Shown here: positions 5,767-39,528 of the stretch, piece by piece | Layout: each line of letters starts with the position of its first letter | How positions within the stretch are numbered: position 1 is the stretch's first letter | Assembly (NCBI GenBank): GCA_017627955.1 | Contig: JAGAFU010000044.1 | Coordinates: 1 to 49,749, forward strand | Direction: 5' to 3' | From: Bacteroidales bacterium | Lineage (GTDB): Bacteria; Bacteroidota; Bacteroidia; Bacteroidales; UBA932 | Length of the DNA: 49,749 nucleotides | The notes under the pieces: model-generated | Database searches by the model: none | Told to the model about the DNA's origin: nothing | Seen by the model: the letters and a program-made list of their open reading frames with translations, nothing else | Position numbers and translations under genes: made by a program

Positions 5767-7968
5767 ATGAGGAGATTCGTATTGTGCTTTGTTTCATTGG
5801 TTTTGCTGAGCATTTCAGCCAGCGCCCAGAGTGTGGAGGTAAAGAACGCCAAGTTCAGCGTCGGGGACTCTCCAGAGTGGAAAGCGCCGGGGTTTGACGA
5901 CAGCGCCTGGAAAATTCTTTCGTTGGATAAGACTTGGGACGATCAAGGGATCTCAAATGACGATTCTTACGCATGGTACAGGATCCATGTGACAATCCCA
6001 TCTTCGATAAAGAACGGCGCCGCATTTCCCGAGAAGGTCCTGCTGAATCTCGGCTCGATCGACGACTGTGACGAGACTTATCTCAACGGGAAGCTGGTCG
6101 GGAAGACCGGAAGGGCACCTGAAGAAGAAGGTGGTTATGAGGGTAAATGGGACACCCCCAGAAAGTACCTTGTGGATCCTAAGGATGTCCTTTGGGACAA
6201 GGAGAATGTGATCGCCGTCAGAGTCTATAACGGTGGCAATCCGGGAGGCTTTTTCGAGGGACCTGCCCGCATCGGTCAAGTAACTCTCGACGCTATCGCC
6301 GCCATGACCGTCACAAAGGGCGATAACGGCTGCGAGGTCAGCTTGAGCACGACAACCAAGCTGGATGGCAAACTTGAGGTGGACGCGACTGACCCGATGA
6401 CCGGCGAGAGATCCACCATCAGTTCCAAGGCCGTGAAGCTCAATCCCAAGAAAGGCCACACCGCCTTTGTGCCGGCCGTGGGGGAGAATACCCTCACCAT
6501 CACTTACCGGGACAATCGCTCCGGTGAGACCTTGAGCGGCACATTCTGCCCGGCTTATATCCTGACTCCGAAGGCTCCGGCCACTCCCCGTTACAACGGG
6601 CCGAAGGTGTTCGGAGTAAGGCCCGGATCTCCCGTTATCTTCCGTCTGGCATTCTCCGGAGAAAAACCCATGAAATATTCAGTTGAAGGCCTCCCTGAAG
6701 GTGTGAGCCTCGATCCAGAGAAGGGAGTCCTCAGCGGCAAGGTCCTTAAGGAAGGAGACTACAAACTCACCTTGAAAGCCATCAACTCGAAAGGTGCCGC
6801 CGAGGCGGATTTCACCCTCAAGGTGGGATCCAAGATCGCCTTGACGCCTCCCATGGGATGGAACTCCTGGAACTGCTGGGGCGTTAGCGTCTCGCAGGAA
6901 AAGGTCATGTCTTCGGCAACCGCGTTGATAAACAGCGGATTGGCCGATTATGGATATTCCTACATCAACATCGATGACGCCTGGGAAGCCGAAGAGCGCG
7001 ACTCCGAGGGCCGGATCCAGACCAACGACAAGTTTCCTGACATGAAGTGTCTGGGAGAGTGGCTCCACTCCAACGGCCTCAAGATGGGAATATATTCCAG
7101 CCCCGGCGACCGCACTTGCGGAGGCTACCTCGGCACCCTCGACCATGAGCGGCAGGACGCCGAGACCTGGAACGAATGGGGCGTGGACTACCTCAAATAC
7201 GACTGGTGCGGCTACAGTAAAGTCTTCGAGCCGAATCCCGACAAGTCCGTCGCCGCCTACGTGCGCCCTTACCTCAAAATGCAGCAGTTCCTCAGGGAAC
7301 AACCCCGCGACATATTCTATTCGCTCTGCCAGTACGGCATGGCGGATGTGTGGACTTGGGGACACGCTGTGGACGCTAACTCCTGGAGGACCACCGGAGA
7401 CATCACCGACACCTGGGAGTCTCTCTACGACATCGGATTCAAACGGCAGACAGATCTCTACCCCTATGCCGGGCCAGGCCACTGGAACGACCCCGACATG
7501 CTTGTGGTCGGAAAAGTCGGCTGGAGCGACAACCTCAGGGACAGCCGCCTGACTCCCGACGAGCAATATACCCACATCACACTATGGTCGCTCCTGGCCG
7601 CCAACATGCTGATAGGTTGTGACTTGGCCCAAATAGACGACTTCACCTTCAATCTTCTCTGTAACAACGAAGTGAACGCCGTCAATCAGGACATCCTCGG
7701 AGAACAGGCCCACAGGGACATCGACGAGGACAATGTGCAGATGTGGAGCCGCCGCCTGTCTGACGGCACAATCGCTATCGGAATATTCAATCTCAACGAC
7801 GCTCCCATGCCGACGTTCCTGAAAGGAGCTCTCGGGAAAATAGGTCTCGAGGATGTCACGACCGTCCGTGATCTCTGGCGCCAGAAAGACATCCCCACAG
7901 ACGCCACCTACATCATCCCCTCCCATGGAGTAAGATTCATCAAAGTCAAAGTCGAGGAGGAACTCTAA
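5767..7968 (+). CDS. secreted alpha-galactosidase, GH27, with N-terminal beta-sandwich and putative Ig-like domain
   Basis: A 733-residue exported enzyme with a signal peptide (MRRFVLCFVSLVLLSISASA, then Q). Residues about 25-180 form a jelly-roll galactose-binding-like domain of the kind seen in sialate O-acetylesterases (CDETYLNGKLVGKTG, FEGPARIGQV). Residues about 275-355 look like a putative Ig (He_PIG) domain (FRLAFSGEKPMKYSVEGLPE, TLKAINSKGAAEADFTL). The GH27 barrel starts at about 360 with TPPMGWNSWNCWGV, continues YINIDDAWE, the nucleophile motif LKYDWCGY (Asp 479) and the acid/base region GHWNDPDMLVVG. A small beta domain ends the protein. It hydrolyses alpha-galactosyl (possibly beta-arabinopyranosyl) ends. 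Its stop overlaps the dnaE start by one base (TAATG). Confidence 0.93.
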   Translation: MRRFVLCFVSLVLLSISASAQSVEVKNAKFSVGDSPEWKAPGFDDSAWKILSLDKTWDDQGISNDDSYAWYRIHVTIPSSIKNGAAFPEKVLLNLGSIDDCDETYLNGKLVGKTGRAPEEEGGYEGKWDTPRKYLVDPKDVLWDKENVIAVRVYNGGNPGGFFEGPARIGQVTLDAIAAMTVTKGDNGCEVSLSTTTKLDGKLEVDATDPMTGERSTISSKAVKLNPKKGHTAFVPAVGENTLTITYRDNRSGETLSGTFCPAYILTPKAPATPRYNGPKVFGVRPGSPVIFRLAFSGEKPMKYSVEGLPEGVSLDPEKGVLSGKVLKEGDYKLTLKAINSKGAAEADFTLKVGSKIALTPPMGWNSWNCWGVSVSQEKVMSSATALINSGLADYGYSYINIDDAWEAEERDSEGRIQTNDKFPDMKCLGEWLHSNGLKMGIYSSPGDRTCGGYLGTLDHERQDAETWNEWGVDYLKYDWCGYSKVFEPNPDKSVAAYVRPYLKMQQFLREQPRDIFYSLCQYGMADVWTWGHAVDANSWRTTGDITDTWESLYDIGFKRQTDLYPYAGPGHWNDPDMLVVGKVGWSDNLRDSRLTPDEQYTHITLWSLLAANMLIGCDLAQIDDFTFNLLCNNEVNAVNQDILGEQAHRDIDEDNVQMWSRRLSDGTIAIGIFNLNDAPMPTFLKGALGKIGLEDVTTVRDLWRQKDIPTDATYIIPSHGVRFIKVKVEEEL

Positions 7969-10900
7969 TGTCATTCGTACACCTGCACGTCCATACCCAG
8001 TACTCCATCCTCGACGGTTTCTCGTCGATAGCCACTCTTTTCGACCGGGCCGAGGCTATGGGAATGCCGGCCCTTGCCATCACCGACCATGGCAACATGT
8101 ACGGTGTCAAGGAGTTCTTCAAGTTCGCGGACAAGCATCGCGACAAGGAGACAAAAGAGTACAAAGTCAAGCCCATCATAGGCTGCGAGGTGTACGTCAC
8201 CAGGCATTACGACCCGAAGCTCAAGGACAATGAGCACAGGTCGTACTACCACCTGATTCTTCTGGCGAAGAACTACGAAGGCTACAAGAACCTTTCGAAC
8301 ATCGTCTCCCTCGGTCACATAGAGGGACTCTACTACGGAAAGCCCAGGGTCAGCCATGAGATAATCGAGAAATACCACGAGGGTCTGATCTGCTGTTCCG
8401 CCTGTCTCGCCGGAGAGATCCCGAAGGACATCGTGGCCGGAGACCTCACGGCCGCCCGCAAAGCTATAGAGTGGCACAAGAAGGTTTTCGGGGATGACTA
8501 CTACCTGGAGGTCATGCTCCACAAGACCGAAGTCCCCGGGCTCTCGCTGGAAGTATTTGAGCAGCAGCAGATAAGCAATGCCGGGATCTTCAAGCTGGCC
8601 GAAGAGACCGGAGTCAAGGTCGTGGCCACCAACGACGTGCATTTCGTGGACAAGGAGGATGGTCCGGCCCACGACCACCTGATCTGCCTGAACACCGGCA
8701 AGAAGATATTCGAGGAACCACGTCTCCATTACACTCAGCAGGAGTACCTGAAGAGCGAAGAGGAGATGGCAGCCCTATTCCCCGACCATCCGGAAGTCCT
8801 CGCCAACACCCTTGAGATAGCCGGCAAGGTCGAGGTCTACAGCATCGACCGGGACCATGTCCTTCCAAAATACGAGATCGATCCCGCCTTCCTGTCCGAT
8901 ATAGACAAATACCTTGAAGAGTATAAGGATGTCATCGACGCCGGAAGGAAGGACAAGAAAGGCAATTATCGTGGAGACGAGTTCTGCCGGTCGGTGGCTT
9001 ACCTTTGCCACCTCACCTACGAAGGAGCCAAGAGACGCTACGGGGACACCCTCAACGAGGAGCAGGCGGAAAGGCTTGATTTTGAGCTCAAGACCATCTG
9101 CCGAATGGGCTTCCCTGACTATTTCCTCATCGTCCAGGATTACATAGCCGCATGCCGCAGGATGGGCAGCCTCGTTGGCCCTGGACGTGGATCCGCCGCG
9201 GGATCCGCTGTGGCTTACTGCCTCGGGATCACCAATCTGGACCCGATCAAATACCAGCTCCTGTTCGAGCGTTTCCTCAACCCGGACCGAATCTCGATGC
9301 CGGATATCGACGTGGACTTCGAGGACTTGGGACTCGCCCACAAATATGTCGATGAGACTTATGGCAAGGACCATGTCTCGCGGGTGATCACCTTCGGTAC
9401 CATGCTCGCGAAGGGGGCGATAAAGGATGTCGCCAGGGTGAGGGACCTGCCTCTCGATGAGTCCAACCGGCTCTCGAGCCTGATTCCCGACCGCCTCAGC
9501 GAGAAAGTCGAGAAGGAATATCCATTCAACCCCAAACTGGATGAGTTGAAACCGGGATTCAAATCTTATGAGAAGGACGGACATTGGTTCCAGAAAGGCA
9601 TGGAGGAAACCGATGTCAAGATCACCCTTAAGAACTGCTACCGCCTTGTCCCTGAATTCAAGGATCTTCTCGCCAATGGCTCGGACCAAGTAAAGGATGT
9701 TCTGAAATACGCCCAGAAACTTGAGGGATGCATCCGCCAGGTAGGCCAGCACGCATGCGCCACCATCATCGGCCGGGGCCGTCTCACCGACTATATTCCC
9801 ATCTGCCTTTCGGTCGAGAAAGAGTCCGGCGAGCTTGTCTGGACCAGCCAGTACGACGGCCACTACATCGAGGATGTCGGAATGCTGAAGATGGACTTCC
9901 TGGGACTCAACACCTTGACCATCATCCACAAATGCCTGGACAACATCAAGCTTCGTCATGGGGTGGACATCGACATCGAGGCTATCGACATAAACGACAA
10001 GCCCACCTACGAGCTTTATAGCCGTGGCGACACCGACAGTGTGTTCCAGTTCGAGTCTCCCGGCATGAAGAGCAACCTGCAAAGGCTTCATCCCGAGCGT
10101 TTCGAGGACCTGATAGCGATGAACGCGCTCTACAGGCCGGGCCCGATGGATTATATTCCTAACTTCATCGACAGGAAACTTGGGCTTGAGCCCATCGACT
10201 ATGACCTCCCCGACATGGAGGAATTCCTGAGCGACACCTACGGGGTCACAGTCTATCAGGAGCAGGTCATGCTCCTCTCCCAGAAGCTTGCCGGCTTCAC
10301 CAAAGGTGAGGCTGACAAGCTGCGTAAGGCAATGGGAAAGAAACAGATAGCCATCCTGAACGAGCTCAAAGACAAGTTCATGAGCGGAGGAATGGCCAAC
10401 GGCCACCCGGAGAAGACCCTGGACAAGATCTGGAAAGACTGGGAGAAGTTCGCCCAGTACGCTTTCAACAAGTCCCACGCGACCTGCTACGCCTGGGTCT
10501 CCTACCAGACCGGCTGGTTGAAATGTCACTACCCCGCCGAGTTCTTCGCGGCCAACTTGTCCTGCAACTTGGGTAACACCGCCGAGATCCGCAAGATCCT
10601 CTCCGATTGCAAAGCCCATAAAATCAAGGTGAAAAGCCCTGATGTCAACGAGTCATATTCCCATTTCACGGTCAACAAAGACGGCGATATCCGCTTCGGG
10701 CTCAAGGGAATAAAAGGCTTCGGCACCAACGTGGCAGACGCGATCATCGCCGGAAGGGAAAGTGACGGACCCTACAAGGACGTGTTCGACTTCGTGGAAA
10801 GAATGGGAAGTGTCCTCAACCGTAAAGCCATGGAATGCCTGGTCTATTCAGGAGCATTTGATTCCTTCAAAATCAAGCGCAGACAATTCTACATGCCTTG

Positions 10901-16604: not shown

Positions 16605-18974
16605 TCAACGAACTTTATCCATCCAGTTGAGGTAAGAGTGGTAGTCGAAGGGCGGCTCTCCGTAGAGGTAATGATTACGGAGTTTCTGGCTCCGGGTCTC
16701 ATATTCAATGAGCAGGACTCCCTGACCCTCGGGGATCGGCAAGCCAGCGACAAGGGAATTGCCGTTCGCCGGAACATTGAACTTCCCTTTGTAGACGACC
16801 TTCCCACTCTCGACATCAGTCACCTTGACTTTTCCTTCAGCTGGTTCAAATGAATCATTGACAGCTCGCAGTGGCAGTGACCCGTCCTCTGGATCATTGA
16901 TCAGGACGCAAACCGTCCTTTGGCTGCGCCAGAGATAGTCGTAAGCAAGCTTTTTGGAATTGTAATAATCCACAATAGCATCCGAGACAATAGGCCAGCC
17001 GTCCCGGACGTTCCACCAGATAATGCCTGTACGGTCAAACTTAGCCCCCCGGAACTTCTCTACAAAGTACTTCATCGCCTCGGCCTGAGTGCTTTGGGAT
17101 GCCCCGATGAAATCTTCCAATGTTGTGGGGCGGAATCCGAAAAGAAGGTTTATCTGCTTGGTCATGAGGTCGTTCCTTCCCACGAACTCATCGAAGAAAG
17201 GTATAGGTCGGACTGATTTAGTCAGCCACTCCTTGTTCCACAGCCCTTCCTCTGTCCAAGGGAACCGGCAGTCCTTGGTGAACATCTTCTCAATCGACTC
17301 GATGTCCGGAGCGCCATGGTAACCGATTTCACTCACGAAAATCGCCTTGGCGTCCTTATAGAACGGATCCTTGTAGTAACCCCTTGGGCCCCAGAGATGG
17401 TCCTGCGGAAGATCTGATCGCTGGCAGCCGTTCTTGAAAGCCTCTTCGCTGAAATACGGAGAGCTCGGCAGATACGGCCGAGTCGGATCGAACTCATAAA
17501 GAACCTCCGGAATCATCTTCCGGCTGATCACATCCCTGTTAGGATCAATACGGAAAGTCGGCAAGGTCCAGAGAAGAGAGTTGTCGTTCTCGTTGTTGCC
17601 GGACCATATAGCCAGGGAAGGATGGCTCCTGAATTTCAGGACAACCTGCTTGACCTCATCCCGCACCTTGGACACAAAGGCTTGATCCTGAGGATAAATG
17701 ATACCGGCCATCGAGAAATCCTGCCAGACCATGATACCTTCACGATCGCAGCGATCATAGAACGGAGTGTCCTCATAGACATTGCCGCCCCAGCAACGGA
17801 TCATGTTGCAATTAAGGTCAACTACCATGTCAAGCGTGCTGTCCACCCACTGGGCATCCCTGCTATGGAAGCCGTCAAGCGGAACCCAGTTGGTTCCTCG
17901 GACAAATACTCTCCGGTTATTGACATAGAAACAGAATTCGCCTTTCCCATCCTTGTCGATCATTTCGCTCCGATCAAGCCTAACTGTCCTGAAACCGACA
18001 TTGCGGGTGTCTGAAGCCAGAATCGTTCCGTCCTCATCTATCAGACTGACGGTACCCTCGTACAAAGCCGGCTCACCATAACCTTTAGGCCACCAAAGCT
18101 CGGCGTTCTCAAGCTTGAATTCTGTCCTCCAGGCGTATGTGGGAAGGAGCCGCTCATCCTCATAGGCGACTTTCCCGTTTCTCTCAAGCTTCACGTTGAG
18201 TTTAATCTTGTCAATCTTGGAGGCCGGGTACTTGATCTGGATGTCCACAAAGGCCGAAACCTCCCTGGTGGCAGGATCAGCACTCACTGTCACCCAATGC
18301 ACATCGCTGATACTCACTGGATTCTGAATATTCAAAGACACTCCTCTCCAGAGTCCGGCGCTGACAAGCCGAGGCATTATGTCCCAACCATAGCAATGGC
18401 GTGGCTTCCGGATCCAGACTGACTCTGTGTAATGCCTGAAGCTATAGGTACCGACCAAATATTTTTGAGCCTCAAGGACAGCGGACCGGAGGATAACCTG
18501 AAGATTGTTCTCTCCCTTCCGGATCTTGGTGGTTATGTCATATTTGTGGGCGATCATGGCGTTCTCCGCTGATCCGACCCTCTCCCCGTTCAAGAAGATG
18601 TCCGCAAGGCAGTCTATCCCTTCGAAATCAAGAATAAGACGTTGTCCTTTAGATATTTCCGGCGCAATGAACGACTTTGAGTACATCCACTGGCAGAACT
18701 CGTAGGGACGCAGGTCGTAGATGTTGTTCCCGACCTGTGGATCTTTGATCATCCCTGCCGCCAGCAGATCCAACTCCACGTTGCCCGGCACGGTGGCGGA
18801 GATTTTTGTGGTTTTCATAGAGGCCACATCGGACGGATCCGTTACAGCCTCCCCTTCCTGCGGCCAGAATTCCAGATCCCACTTGCCGTTAAGGGATATC
18901 TTGTCCTGAGCCGGAACGCTCAAGCTTATGGCCATAAACAAAGCCACTGTGGAAAGGAAAATCTCTTTTCTCAT
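16605..18974 (-). CDS. secreted GH2 beta-mannosidase-like glycoside hydrolase
   Basis: A 789-residue exported enzyme (signal peptide MRKEIFLSTVALFMAISLSV, cleavage near PAQ). The N-terminal jelly-roll (ISLNGKWDLEF, SATVPGNVELDLL, FEGIDCLADIFLNGERVG) is of the beta-mannosidase kind rather than beta-galactosidase. An immunoglobulin-like domain follows, then the barrel with FVRGTNWVPLDGFHSRD, RCWGGNVYEDTPFYD and the acid/base motif WSGNNENDNS. The nucleophile region is FVSEIGYHGAPDIESIEKMF. Substrate is probably beta-mannosides or related beta-glycosides. It is the last gene of a five-gene minus operon, beginning two bases after the uvrC stop. Family assignment is sound; the precise substrate is inferred. 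Confidence 0.88.
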   Translation of the reverse strand: MRKEIFLSTVALFMAISLSVPAQDKISLNGKWDLEFWPQEGEAVTDPSDVASMKTTKISATVPGNVELDLLAAGMIKDPQVGNNIYDLRPYEFCQWMYSKSFIAPEISKGQRLILDFEGIDCLADIFLNGERVGSAENAMIAHKYDITTKIRKGENNLQVILRSAVLEAQKYLVGTYSFRHYTESVWIRKPRHCYGWDIMPRLVSAGLWRGVSLNIQNPVSISDVHWVTVSADPATREVSAFVDIQIKYPASKIDKIKLNVKLERNGKVAYEDERLLPTYAWRTEFKLENAELWWPKGYGEPALYEGTVSLIDEDGTILASDTRNVGFRTVRLDRSEMIDKDGKGEFCFYVNNRRVFVRGTNWVPLDGFHSRDAQWVDSTLDMVVDLNCNMIRCWGGNVYEDTPFYDRCDREGIMVWQDFSMAGIIYPQDQAFVSKVRDEVKQVVLKFRSHPSLAIWSGNNENDNSLLWTLPTFRIDPNRDVISRKMIPEVLYEFDPTRPYLPSSPYFSEEAFKNGCQRSDLPQDHLWGPRGYYKDPFYKDAKAIFVSEIGYHGAPDIESIEKMFTKDCRFPWTEEGLWNKEWLTKSVRPIPFFDEFVGRNDLMTKQINLLFGFRPTTLEDFIGASQSTQAEAMKYFVEKFRGAKFDRTGIIWWNVRDGWPIVSDAIVDYYNSKKLAYDYLWRSQRTVCVLINDPEDGSLPLRAVNDSFEPAEGKVKVTDVESGKVVYKGKFNVPANGNSLVAGLPIPEGQGVLLIEYETRSQKLRNHYLYGEPPFDYHSYLNWMDKVR

Positions 18975-18976
18975 GG

Positions 18977-20797
18977 TTATTGGTTTGAGTATTCTTTGTT
19001 AAGTTCTTCGAGGATGGTCTTGGCTAGAGCCGGCGAGACCATGGTGGAGAGGTCCTCCAGCGATGCGGCAGCTATGCGGGCCACCGATCCGTAATGCATC
19101 AACAGCCGGCTTTCAGTCTGCTCCCCGACCCCCTTGATGTCACGTAAAGCGCTATGAATCTGTCCTTTGCTTCGAAGTGAACGATGGAATGTGATTCCAA
19201 AGCGATGGGCCTCGTCCCGGATCTGCATGAGCACTTTCAGGGCATGGGAATTCCTGTCCAGGAAAAGGGGATAAGGATCGTTGATCCTGATCACCAGCTC
19301 CATCCTCTTGGCGAGTCCCACGACCATTAGACGATCCAGGAGACCAAGTTCAGCGAGAGCCTGCCTGGCAAACTCCAGCTGCCCTTCACCACCGTCTATA
19401 ACCACCAGCTGGGGAAGATCGTCAGGAGCCTCGGCTAGCATGCGGGAATACCTCCTGTTGACCACTTCTTTCATCGAAGCGAAGTCATTCGCCCCAATGA
19501 CTGTTTTGATTTTGAATTTGCGGTAGTCTTTTTTCGAGGGGACACCGTCACGGAACACCACACAGGAAGCCACCGGATTGGTACCTTGGATGTTAGAGTT
19601 GTCAAAACACTCGATATGCTTAGGTAAATCCTTCATCCCCAGCGCTTTCTGCAGATCCTCCATGACCATGCGCTTGTACTCGTCCGGGTCGGTGCGCTCT
19701 TTCTGCTTGAGAGTGTTGAAATGGTACTCCCGGGCATTCTTGGCGCTAAGTTCCAGAAGGGACATCTTGTCGCCTTTGACCGGAATTTTGAATTCAACAC
19801 CTTCTATCTCCACATCCGGAAGGAAGGGAACGATCACCTCTTTAGCCAGAGCTCCGAACTTTGACTCGATCTCCGCGATGAAGGCGCTAAGCACGGAAGC
19901 CCTCTCTTCCTCGATGTTCATCTTGAACCCTAGATTCAAAGACTGCACGACCGCTCCTCCCCTGACCCGCAAAAAGTTACCGAAGGCTTCAGAGCCATCG
20001 AAAACAAGAGAGAAAACATCACAGGAAACATCAGAGGACGAGGATATTATCGACTTTGAATAATGCTTTTTCAAAGCGTCTATCCTGCTCTTGAAAACCT
20101 GAGCATCCTCGAAACGAAGCTCCGAGGCAGCCTCTTTCATGGAGGCCTCATATTCCTTGATGATGTCGTTCACGCCTCCCTTTAGAAGGCGGGTTATCTC
20201 ACTGATCCAGGAGGCATACTCCTCCCGGCTGACGCTACCCACGCAACAGCCTTTGCAGCGTCCTATGTGCATCTCCAAGCACGGGCGGAACTTTCCCCTC
20301 AGGACAGCCTCGCCGGTGATTTTAAGCTTGCAGGAACGCAGAGGATAGTTCTTCCTGAAAAACTCGAGAAGATAGTTGGCATGTGTCACGGAACTATATG
20401 GTCCATAATAAGTTCCGCTTTTTCGGTCCACTCTCCTCGTAAGGAAGACCCTCGGGAACTCCTCATTCGTCACCTCGATCCAAGGATAGGTTTTCGAGTC
20501 TTTGAGGAGGATATTGTAATGAGGCTTGTACTGCTTGATCAGGTTGTTCTCCAAAAGCAGGGCATCGGCCTCCGTGTCGACCACCGAATACTTGGCGTCA
20601 GCTATCTTTGAGACCAGGATACGGGTCTTGACATTGAGCCTCTCCGGGGGGACGAAGTACTGCGCTACCCTCTTGTGGAGGTCCTTGGCCTTCCCGACAT
20701 AAATCACCTTCCCCGAGGAATCGTAATAGCGATAAACCCCCGGGGAATGTGGAAACAGGGATATTTTCTCCCTGATAGTTAGACTATTACCGTCCAA
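18977..20797 (-). CDS. uvrC: excinuclease ABC subunit C
   Basis: A 606-residue nucleotide-excision-repair nuclease that makes the two cuts in UvrB-bound DNA. The GIY-YIG domain opens the protein (SPGVYRYYD, GKVIYVGKAKDLHKRVAQYF). The UVR domain is near residues 205-245 (RFEDAQVFKSRIDALKKHY). The RNase H-like C-terminal nuclease contains HIECFDNSNIQGTNPVASC and PQLVVIDGGEGQLEFARQAL. Tandem helix-hairpin-helix motifs end it (IKGVGEQTESRLLMHYG). The start codon is TTG at 20797, two bases after the stop of the thioredoxin gene; no ATG exists before the GIY-YIG domain. Translation is probably coupled to the upstream gene. Confidence 0.96.
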   Translation of the reverse strand: MDGNSLTIREKISLFPHSPGVYRYYDSSGKVIYVGKAKDLHKRVAQYFVPPERLNVKTRILVSKIADAKYSVVDTEADALLLENNLIKQYKPHYNILLKDSKTYPWIEVTNEEFPRVFLTRRVDRKSGTYYGPYSSVTHANYLLEFFRKNYPLRSCKLKITGEAVLRGKFRPCLEMHIGRCKGCCVGSVSREEYASWISEITRLLKGGVNDIIKEYEASMKEAASELRFEDAQVFKSRIDALKKHYSKSIISSSSDVSCDVFSLVFDGSEAFGNFLRVRGGAVVQSLNLGFKMNIEEERASVLSAFIAEIESKFGALAKEVIVPFLPDVEIEGVEFKIPVKGDKMSLLELSAKNAREYHFNTLKQKERTDPDEYKRMVMEDLQKALGMKDLPKHIECFDNSNIQGTNPVASCVVFRDGVPSKKDYRKFKIKTVIGANDFASMKEVVNRRYSRMLAEAPDDLPQLVVIDGGEGQLEFARQALAELGLLDRLMVVGLAKRMELVIRINDPYPLFLDRNSHALKVLMQIRDEAHRFGITFHRSLRSKGQIHSALRDIKGVGEQTESRLLMHYGSVARIAAASLEDLSTMVSPALAKTILEELNKEYSNQ

Positions 20798-38442: not shown

Positions 38443-38483
38443 AAAAAAAATGAGCGTCGACGCTTCCCGCGTGGACCCTCACT
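38443..38483 (-). terminator. rho-independent terminator of the candidate small RNA
   Basis: On the minus strand the left side AGTGAG-G-GTC-C-ACGC, loop GGGAA, and right side GCGT-C-GAC-G-CTCATT pair over 13 base pairs with two 1x1 mismatches (G/G and C/C). The stem leads directly into a run of eight T (38443-38450 as A on the plus strand). On the plus strand the hairpin is not followed by T, so it serves the minus transcript. Confidence 0.82.
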
Positions 38484-38559
38484 CTAACCACATAATTAAT
38501 AACACTAAAACTAATAACCAATCGGGTTGTCCGGGGAGAGAACCTCCTTGCTCAACCCG
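38443..38559 (-). ncRNA. candidate small RNA of about 117 bases, no known family recognised
   Basis: A complete minus-strand transcription unit without a convincing reading frame. A perfect promoter (38563-38593) predicts a start near 38559. The RNA begins with a stem pairing CGGGUUG with CAACCCG (dyad 38521-38529 and 38553-38561). Inside it a smaller GGAG-GUUCU-CUCC hairpin holds AAGGAGGU, the complement of the 16S rRNA anti-Shine-Dalgarno. An AU-rich single-stranded linker of about 37 bases follows. The unit ends in a strong terminator at 38443-38483. It lies between nhaA (antisense tail avoided by three bases) and comF. It is not recognisable as SRP RNA, 6S RNA, tmRNA or RNase P RNA. It could be an orphaned leader whose gene was lost. 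Confidence 0.6.
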
Positions 38560-38562
38560 ATG

Positions 38563-38593
38563 CAAAGGTACGGCTTTTTTTAATTAATGCAAA
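38563..38593 (-). promoter_or_regulatory. consensus promoter of the candidate small RNA
   Basis: On the minus strand TTTG (38590-38593), exactly 19 bases, then TACCTTTG (38563-38570): a full match to TTTG-N19-TAnnTTTG. It equals the ribosomal operon promoter in quality. No protein gene lies downstream on this strand before the terminator, and beyond it lies the antisense strand of nhaA. Confidence 0.82.
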
Positions 38594-38769: not shown

Positions 38770-39528
38770 TCAATCACCGACACAAGCCAACGTCGCGACC
38801 GAAACTTTCACCCCAGGACTGATTATTTTCCGCAATTCCGAGTAACAGGCATGTACAGTTGACCCGGTAGTGAACACATCATCCACCAGAAGAATATGCC
38901 GGCACCCCCTGAGACGGCCCATATCCCTTACAGCAAAAGCCCCTGCCACATTAGCGGTCTTTTCCAAAAGCGACAAATGGGTCTGAGTCCTTGTCTTCCG
39001 CATTCGGACAAGAACATCTCCTCCGAAATCCGCCCCAAAGGCATCCGCCAGAACCCTTCCGATAATTTCAGACTGGTTATAACCCCTTGCCCAGCGCCTT
39101 GTCCAGTGCAAAGGCACCGGGACTACCAAGTCAACGTCGCCATATAAGGACGAGGACCGCATCTCCTCTGCCAACATCCTGGCGAAATAACGCCCGGCCG
39201 GGATATTCCCGCGATATTTAAGACTCTTCGTGATGTTCCTATAGCCAGTGGAGGCCCGGTAAAAGAACAAAGCGGCGGCATTGGCGTAAGGAACATAAAC
39301 CGGATTCGAGAGCCTGTCCAAATCTTTCTGGATCAACGCGTTCAACCGGTCAGCCATCCGGTTTCGGGGCATGATGGAATAGTAAGTACGGGGCAAGTCT
39401 GCCAGACAGTCCCCGCAAATATGATCCTCCTCCAGCGACAGTTTTTCCCCACAGACCAAGCAGACCCGGGGAATCATCAAGTCCAGAACGGACTTGAGAT
39501 AATCTGAAACAGTAATTCCAGCCAACAT
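38770..39528 (-). CDS. ComF-family phosphoribosyltransferase-like protein
   Basis: A 252-residue protein. An N-terminal zinc-finger-like segment has CLVCGEKLSLEEDHICGDC (four Cys). The phosphoribosyltransferase domain contains LVVPVPLHWTRRWARGYNQS, RTQTHLSLLEKTANVAGAF and the PRPP loop HILLVDDVFTTGSTVHACYS. ComF proteins take part in DNA uptake in competent bacteria, while in others the role is unknown. The start at 39528 gives a normal family N-terminus (DLMIPRVCLVCG). It is a single gene, divergent from the M19 dipeptidase with only 48 bases between the starts. Confidence 0.92.
   Translation of the reverse strand: MLAGITVSDYLKSVLDLMIPRVCLVCGEKLSLEEDHICGDCLADLPRTYYSIMPRNRMADRLNALIQKDLDRLSNPVYVPYANAAALFFYRASTGYRNITKSLKYRGNIPAGRYFARMLAEEMRSSSLYGDVDLVVPVPLHWTRRWARGYNQSEIIGRVLADAFGADFGGDVLVRMRKTRTQTHLSLLEKTANVAGAFAVRDMGRLRGCRHILLVDDVFTTGSTVHACYSELRKIISPGVKVSVATLACVGD

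Follow-up and report, generated by a model that had tools for sequence, protein, structure and literature searches.

Anatomy of the gene in the window

The minus strand of the DNA analyzed here (49,749 nucleotides, referred to as the window) carries a predicted small-RNA gene between nhaA and comF (Table 1). The original prediction had described its promoter as TTTG-N19-TACCTTTG, which direct reading of the sequence confirmed, and the structured 5' end, the AU-rich linker, and the terminator running into eight U were all present in the sequence and the fold. The AU-rich stretch between the 5' hairpin and the terminator hairpin is 36 nt long and contains a 34-nt core. The transcript would be a small RNA in its own right, some 117 nt long. 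When positions 38561-38443 (119 nt) were folded, the minimum free energy (MFE) was -41 kcal/mol, as compared with -29.35 ± 3.36 kcal/mol in 200 dinucleotide shuffles (z = -3.47; 1 of 200 as good). The terminator hairpin was absent from the output of a simple terminator scan because its stem is interrupted, and ARAGORN reported no tRNA or tmRNA in the window.

Table 1. Features of the small-RNA gene and its flanks (window positions)
Feature	Positions	Strand	Basis or remark
Small-RNA gene, whole	38443-38593	-	Sigma-AB-type promoter, 5' hairpin, AU-rich core, and terminator, read from the sequence
-33 box TTTG of sigma-AB (Bacteroidota housekeeping) type promoter	38590-38593	-	Sequence
-7 box TACCTTTG	38563-38570	-	Sequence; 19-nt spacer to TTTG
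5' hairpin, 41 nt	38521-38561	-	Fold; stem pairing kept despite sequence change
Apical pentaloop GUUCU of the 5' hairpin	38539-38543	-	Recurrent GTTCT before the core in copies
Invariant 34-nt core GGUUAUUAGUUUUAGUGUUAUUAAUUAUGUGGUU, no C	38486-38519	-	Identity across genus copies
Intrinsic terminator hairpin	38447-38485	-	Fold; 15 pairs broken by single mismatches
Terminator U tract, eight U	38443-38450	-	Sequence
Equivalent of the phage/host shared block (TTAGTG to terminator end)	38443-38508	-	Assigned by position only for the window copy
nhaA	37026-38438	+	Flanks the small-RNA gene; convergent with the RNA
comF	38770-39528	-	Other flank of the small-RNA gene

An invariant core across one genus

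The 34-nt core, GGTTATTAGTTTTAGTGTTATTAATTATGTGGTT, was identical in 149 of 150 places, and variation was otherwise seen only in the two bases preceding it. Using a 36-base pattern with up to three mismatches, a search by which more diverged copies would be missed, we found the core in 121 of 151 genomes of the genus and in 56 of the 63 high-quality ones; one genome with no pattern match (G036) nevertheless carries a copy with one base deleted. Copies per genome ranged from one to three, with two or three core places in 26 genomes. One of these 26, G015, has an inverted pair at a contig end (L112, C17) that is probably an assembly fold-back. At the family level 9 of 119 genomes matched, and at the order level 2 of 295, all of them members of this genus, while none of 110 genomes from 24 other genera of the family contained the pattern. 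A longer, 211-base query matched 93 of 101 genus genomes, many of the weak matches covering promoter-like upstream DNA only.

An exact 25-mer scan of named species genomes, which by its nature cannot show variation of those 25 bases, returned at least 120 stretches. The labels among the matches listed were Candidatus Cryptobacteroides, mostly uncultured Bacteroidales, a few Rikenellaceae and Prevotellaceae, and one Bacteroides, and the hosts among them included deer, goat, sheep, yak, buffalo, reindeer, and horse. The carrier genus appears to be Cryptobacteroides, a genus of gut bacteria. It is a deep genus, as its ftcD proteins are 60-91% identical to that of the window genome (28 of 41 genomes matched, the window genome included). 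The core has stayed the same in 149 of 150 copies in spite of this divergence.

Compensatory change in both stems

RNAalifold, run on a plain MAFFT alignment, paired the core with itself and missed or misplaced the 5' stem. Because of this misplacement and self-pairing, we adopted a strand-swap permutation in which the pairing of each stem strand with its own partner was compared with 10,000 re-pairings. The 113 hairpin-type copies were dereplicated at 80% identity of their variable parts, leaving 38, or 37 after removal of a phage contig (L280). With the relatedness of these 37 copies uncontrolled, the 5' stem scored 6.11 of 7 with its own strand and 5.34 with foreign strands, and the terminator stem 5.91 and 5.11 of 7, respectively; for neither stem was any of the 10,000 permutations as good. 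Both stems thus change in sequence while keeping their pairing, which is compensatory change.

The loops recur as well. GTTCT occurred before the core 25 times in the 37 dereplicated copies, 22 of these between flanks that scored 3 or more of 4 for pairing, and it formed the 5' hairpin loop in 18 of 38 single folds. Of 38 folded copies, 26 had a terminator loop that was exactly GNRA, and nine more had one longer than GNRA by a single base. The original prediction had stressed the stems; they are indeed conserved by pairing, but conservation is highest in the 34-nt core, which it had regarded as a linker.

The structural state of the core is less clear-cut. The MFE fold of the window RNA pairs 38493-38520 with itself, whereas the centroid leaves most of the core open, and across 120 copies the mean unpaired probability along the core ranged from 0.08 to 0.92. 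Since the core is invariant, there is no covariation for or against its self-pairing, and these folding models suggest that the core may not be exposed.

One core, several promoters, many places

To describe how the core is expressed, 162 copies that were distinct in sequence (three of them viral; some genomes may be counted twice) were sorted by motif and distance. A -7 box of the form TAnnTTTG was present in 147 of them, and TACCTTTG in 126; in 113 of the 147, TTTG was found at a 19-nt spacer. The TAnnTTTG box lay 13-60 nt upstream of the core in 137 copies, leaving room for the hairpin (folding was checked on the dereplicated set only), and 5 nt upstream in seven. Hairpin-less copies L184, L239, L240, and L266 have GTTAAA-type direct repeats upstream of the promoter that, judged by eye, are perhaps an activator site. 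Seven further copies (L172, L187, L189, L216, L252, L258, and L278) have TTGGCAC...TTG boxes, which we take from the consensus to be sigma54-type promoters, four at 52-53 nt and three at 14 nt from the core. Yet another seven (L041, L043, L045, L200, L236, L268, and L270) have the core directly 3' of tRNA-Cys, confirmed by ARAGORN in all seven, and followed by a terminator; here the core could be released as a trailer. The remaining four comprise two copies with degenerate promoters and two viral ones. A run of at least four T within 70 nt 3' of the core was found in 155 of the 162 copies. This sorting indicates that the constant unit is the core with its terminator and that what drives it varies. 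In related genomes, the -7 box (147 of the 162 copies), the T run (155 of 162), and the pairing of the stems (37 dereplicated copies) are kept, and the compensatory changes that the original prediction had asked for were found in both stems.

The small RNA reportedly made in Escherichia coli from the tRNA trailer 3'ETS of leuZ resembles the seven tRNA-Cys copies, but here the same core would also come from stand-alone genes whose promoters are of two sigma types.

The proposed orphan gene between nhaA and comF occupies that position in the window, but this is not its fixed home. A relative of either gene was found in the examined stretch of only 20 of 224 core-bearing loci, several of them overlapping; because this position occurs only in some relatives and other copies lie elsewhere, the gene is not tied to the nhaA-comF gap. 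Around 120 named loci, 202 neighboring genes fell into 111 clusters, the largest with 17 members. Such differing neighborhoods are as expected of a trans-acting RNA, and we regard action in trans as likely.

Relation to known RNAs

Rfam 15 gave no match in the window at the gathering score, so that the covariance check proposed at the outset returned no family and the reported lack of a match to SRP, 6S, tmRNA, or RNase P RNA was upheld. Loose hits (L20_leader, CbSR9, and eukaryotic families) were all far below threshold. Membership in FopS (RF04319) was rejected, the window RNA scoring 14.9 bits against a gathering cut-off of 56, and no FopS match up to E 1 was obtained in 15 loci (the window locus and 14 from relatives). 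The likeness of the core to the FopS consensus (R1' seed) is weak, the best local alignment being equaled by 137 of 5000 shuffles. In the window genome, C38:105112-105184 (L033 1501-1573) is a separate FopS/GibS-like candidate with promoter-like boxes, at 34.6 bits against the cut-off of 56, and C40:15760-15835 (L034 1501-1576) is a weaker one at 22.7 bits that alone did not reach E 0.1; sub-threshold FopS hits were also present in 8 of 14 control genomes.

In design, the RNA resembles FopS. FopS of Bacteroides (PMC11697453) is multicopy and mostly intergenic, with an exposed seed, an intrinsic terminator, and a sigma-AB promoter; one member is derived from a 3' UTR, and the sequence was reported in a phage too. 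FopS blocks susC translation in vitro, at the mRNA start, and lowers susC mRNA in Bacteroides (PMC11697453). The window RNA shares with FopS the multiple copies, the sigma-AB promoter, the intrinsic terminator, and the occurrence in phages. FopS RNAs are about 65-70 nt long, begin with the seed, and lack a 5' hairpin, whereas in the window the core is preceded by a hairpin of some 40 nt, so that the order of a 5'-end seed followed by a terminator was not found in the window RNA; this layout is approached by only 10 copies, those whose promoter box lies 5 or 14 nt upstream of the core. GibS of Bacteroides thetaiotaomicron, with exposed seeds and a non-sigma-AB promoter according to the same source (PMC11697453), is another Bacteroidales small RNA that is alike by description, the comparison being made without alignment.

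No description of the present RNA was found in literature titles and the starts of abstracts. Among the papers searched, the sole mention of Cryptobacteroides together with small RNA was, by its title, a calf-feeding study, and RNA regulation in the genus accordingly looks unexplored.

Together, the lack of an Rfam match, the promoter, the compensatory stems, the terminator, and the genus-wide invariant core support the suggestion of a new regulatory-type RNA of Bacteroidales. We conclude, with a probability of about 0.97 for the existence of the RNA family, that this family of small RNAs is real and new, and that its core and its modularity are unusual.

Possible pairing of the core with mRNA starts

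As the core has no C, a pairing partner would need no G, and mRNA leaders of the phylum Bacteroidota are poor in G anyway. We searched 41 genomes for complements of each 20-nt half of the core with up to three mismatches. Of 16 non-self sites for the 5' half, 12 ended 0-26 nt upstream of an ATG that begins an open frame in the appropriate orientation, as did four of seven for the 3' half (a count that omits two sites located in a repeat, whose frames have 63 and 77 codons). Reversed patterns, counted irrespective of their position relative to ATG, gave eight and four matches, against 16 and seven for the true halves. No long complement recurred for either half in this search, and a single strictly conserved long antisense target was therefore rejected.

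Pairing scores were then compared with shuffles. Among the start regions of 1108 genes, a score of at least 26 was reached 22 times, whereas shuffles gave 8.7 (1 of 100 reached that count) and the reversed core gave six; at the same score and in the same gene set, upstream regions gave six against 3.0 (9 of 100 shuffles) and regions within genes none against 1.8. In the window genome (597 genes), score 30 was reached at seven starts versus 0.9 in shuffles (0 of 300) and score 26 at 12 versus 4.9 (2 of 300). There was no clear excess in another carrier, G016 (score 30, one versus 0.6; score 24, 12 versus 7.2, 29 of 300 shuffles), or in a close relative, G017 (score 30, one versus 0.2, 99 of 500 shuffles as many; score 24, four versus 3.2). 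Nor was an excess seen at score 30 among 679 genes beside other copies (one versus 0.8) or in G324, a genome without the RNA (none versus 0.9). The pairing excess was thus seen in the window genome and not in the two other carriers G016 and G017, and the support that it lends is weak.

Most individual target candidates did not hold up. At 18974-18993 (minus strand) of the window, 17 of 20 bases are complementary to the core, ending at the start codon of a GH2 beta-mannosidase-like gene, but the site survives only in part in one relative and is gone from three others, a fifth sequence (L286) stopping at a contig edge. The 15 orthologues of ftcD did not pair clearly above shuffles (89 of 1000 as good), and in 18 orthologue pairs the pairing scores correlated no more than shuffles. 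Tat-signal oxidoreductases, a class chosen after seeing the hits, had a mean of 21.4 versus 17.8 over 12 genes (0 of 500 shuffles), but this post hoc enrichment was not followed by G017, in which both of two new genes scored low. Three SusC-like genes scored 20.7 versus 17.2 (20 of 500 shuffles as good); among 20 SusC/TonB-type starts from the window genome, one leader (L075) pairs noticeably, which is suggestive, but a convincing set was absent. A search with five short motifs for rRNA as a possible target found no rRNA in the stretches examined.

With 34 invariant nt, the core would be unusually long for a pairing seed. We put the chances that the core pairs at mRNA starts at about even and keep this as the most likely mode of action because the design resembles FopS. 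The core could instead be a protein-binding site, the RNA titrating or serving an RNA-binding protein, such as an RbpB-related RRM protein, with the stems doing no more than stabilizing it. RRM proteins usually read few bases, so that 34 invariant nt would be unusual for such a site, and a core that lacks C is well suited to pairing with leaders that are poor in G, but 34 invariant nt without a recurrent long complement in 41 genomes and a pairing signal that was not reproduced in two other carriers both fit protein binding. RbpB, moreover, binds FopS and GibS (PMC11697453). On balance, we consider a protein-binding core rather unlikely.

The gene as a probable phage attachment site

Exact scans of IMG/VR identified 14 viral contigs with part or all of the core (L341 and L342 counted as one), while phage and plasmid record collections gave no match. 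In six of these contigs (L339, L340, L341, L343, L346, and L348, the last of which ends there), only the 3' half of the core is present, followed by a terminator, and an integrase-type gene lies 81-150 nt away. L280 has the full core, and L344 the full core with one extra base, both with an integrase-type gene at 34-50 nt. L281 and L282 carry the full core with its own terminator 3' of a ligA-like gene, and the integrase-type gene lies 161-262 nt off on the other side. Thus, part or all of the core was found less than 270 nt from an integrase-type gene in 10 of the 14 contigs. Two others (L337 and L338) have only the 5' half, 0.98 and 1.35 kb from such a gene, and two phage contigs (L345 and L347) have the 3' half with a different terminator and no integrase in the examined part. 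The integrase was confirmed by Pfam or PHROGs in L339, L281, L282, L346, L343, L338, and L280, which include six of the 10 near-core cases; the call rests on a like protein start in L340, L341, L344, and L348 and on inspection by eye in L337. Portal, endolysin, Erf, and DnaB proteins mark L340, L338, L346, and L343 as phage contigs. L340 also carries a reverse transcriptase gene (PHROG 1423) at 7625-8617.

The block shared by phages and hosts runs from TTAGTG inside the core through the terminator, leaving the promoter and the 5' stem outside. Over 65 nt, L341 and L343 are exactly identical to host locus L227, and over 63 nt L346 is identical to host locus L014; the integrase in these three contigs, confirmed for L343 and L346, lies 81-95 nt away. 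Identity with hosts was shorter elsewhere (28 nt in L339 and 35 nt in L340), and L280 and L281 share 40 and 42 nt with hosts around the full core (L282 was outside the comparison). At the core site, contig IMGVR_UViG_3300028805_000267 has a 126-nt overlap between its two ends, as in a circular genome.

tRNA, tmRNA, and other RNA genes serve as phage attachment sites, the phage carrying the 3' end of the gene beside its integrase. Judged from the sequences, the phage block with its adjacent integrase is arranged as in phages that integrate into RNA genes and restore them, and the small-RNA gene is probably a phage attachment site (attB). The phage copy of the 3' end of the gene, terminator included, beside an integrase is shared with tRNA and tmRNA sites; the differences are that the gene here is an uncharacterized small RNA and that the block begins inside its invariant core. 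An inserted prophage was recognized in none of the host copies, and all 3'-half-only sites among the examined sequences were viral. In L172 and L325, two inverted cores enclose a MATE gene together with a small gene resembling tyrosine recombinases, which in tblastn matched phage integrases at E of about 1e-6 to 1e-8.

These findings raise the question of whether the core is kept for its role as DNA, in recombination or attachment, and is spread by phages and related elements, with transcription being secondary. The proximity to integrase-type genes in the viral contigs, the occurrence of copies in many places, and the inverted core pairs around the MATE and recombinase-like genes would all suit such a site. 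However, TTTG at 19 nt, a pairing 5' stem, and the terminator are all kept, the promoter and the 5' stem lie outside the phage-shared block, and an integrase-like match was found in the examined flanks of only 3 of 195 host loci, some overlapping, with six query integrases. Phages also use RNA genes as insertion sites without being the purpose of those genes. We therefore judge it improbable that the core is primarily a DNA site.

Coding potential and leader function

The original prediction had seen no convincing reading frame, and this was borne out. The frame through the core, LVISFSVINYVV, starts with TTG and passes the terminator without a stop in the window, and as 149 of 150 cores are unchanged, no synonymous change is visible. 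A four-codon frame (ATG-TGG-TTA-GAG-TGA; 38479-38493, minus strand) starts inside the core. Although both frames are present in the sequence, the long one does not end before the terminator and the short one is lost in some copies (e.g. L014), and with no synonymous change in 150 copies a tiny protein is very improbable. Least probable is a cis-acting leader or attenuator of a neighboring gene: the RNA has a hairpin-then-terminator anatomy resembling that of a leader and scores 18.1 bits with L20_leader (threshold 58.7), but in the window it is convergent with nhaA, pointing at its end, and it has neighbors that differ between species.

Proposed mode of action and meaning

We favor a trans-acting small RNA that would be shielded and ended by its 5' hairpin and terminator and whose C-free core would pair with the G-poor start regions of several mRNAs and block ribosome entry, as FopS does in Bacteroides. 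The different promoters and the tRNA-Cys trailer would let different signals deliver the same core. Because one core would, under this proposal, serve many mRNAs, almost no base of it could change. More speculatively, and with considerable doubt, the invariant C-free core could be a genus-wide regulatory word with at least four expression routes (a housekeeping promoter with the hairpin, a bare promoter, a sigma54-type promoter, and the tRNA-Cys trailer), acting on many mRNAs at once; temperate phages that insert and carry full cores with their own terminators, behind ligA or integrase genes, would speak the same word during infection.

A 34-nt core without variation across more than 100 species is unusual for a small RNA and raises the question of what constrains each base. 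Its occurrence in several contexts lends itself to testing how a single seed is coupled to different signals. To our knowledge, there is little or no genetics for Cryptobacteroides, and the link to phages could provide this genus with an integration site and integrases.
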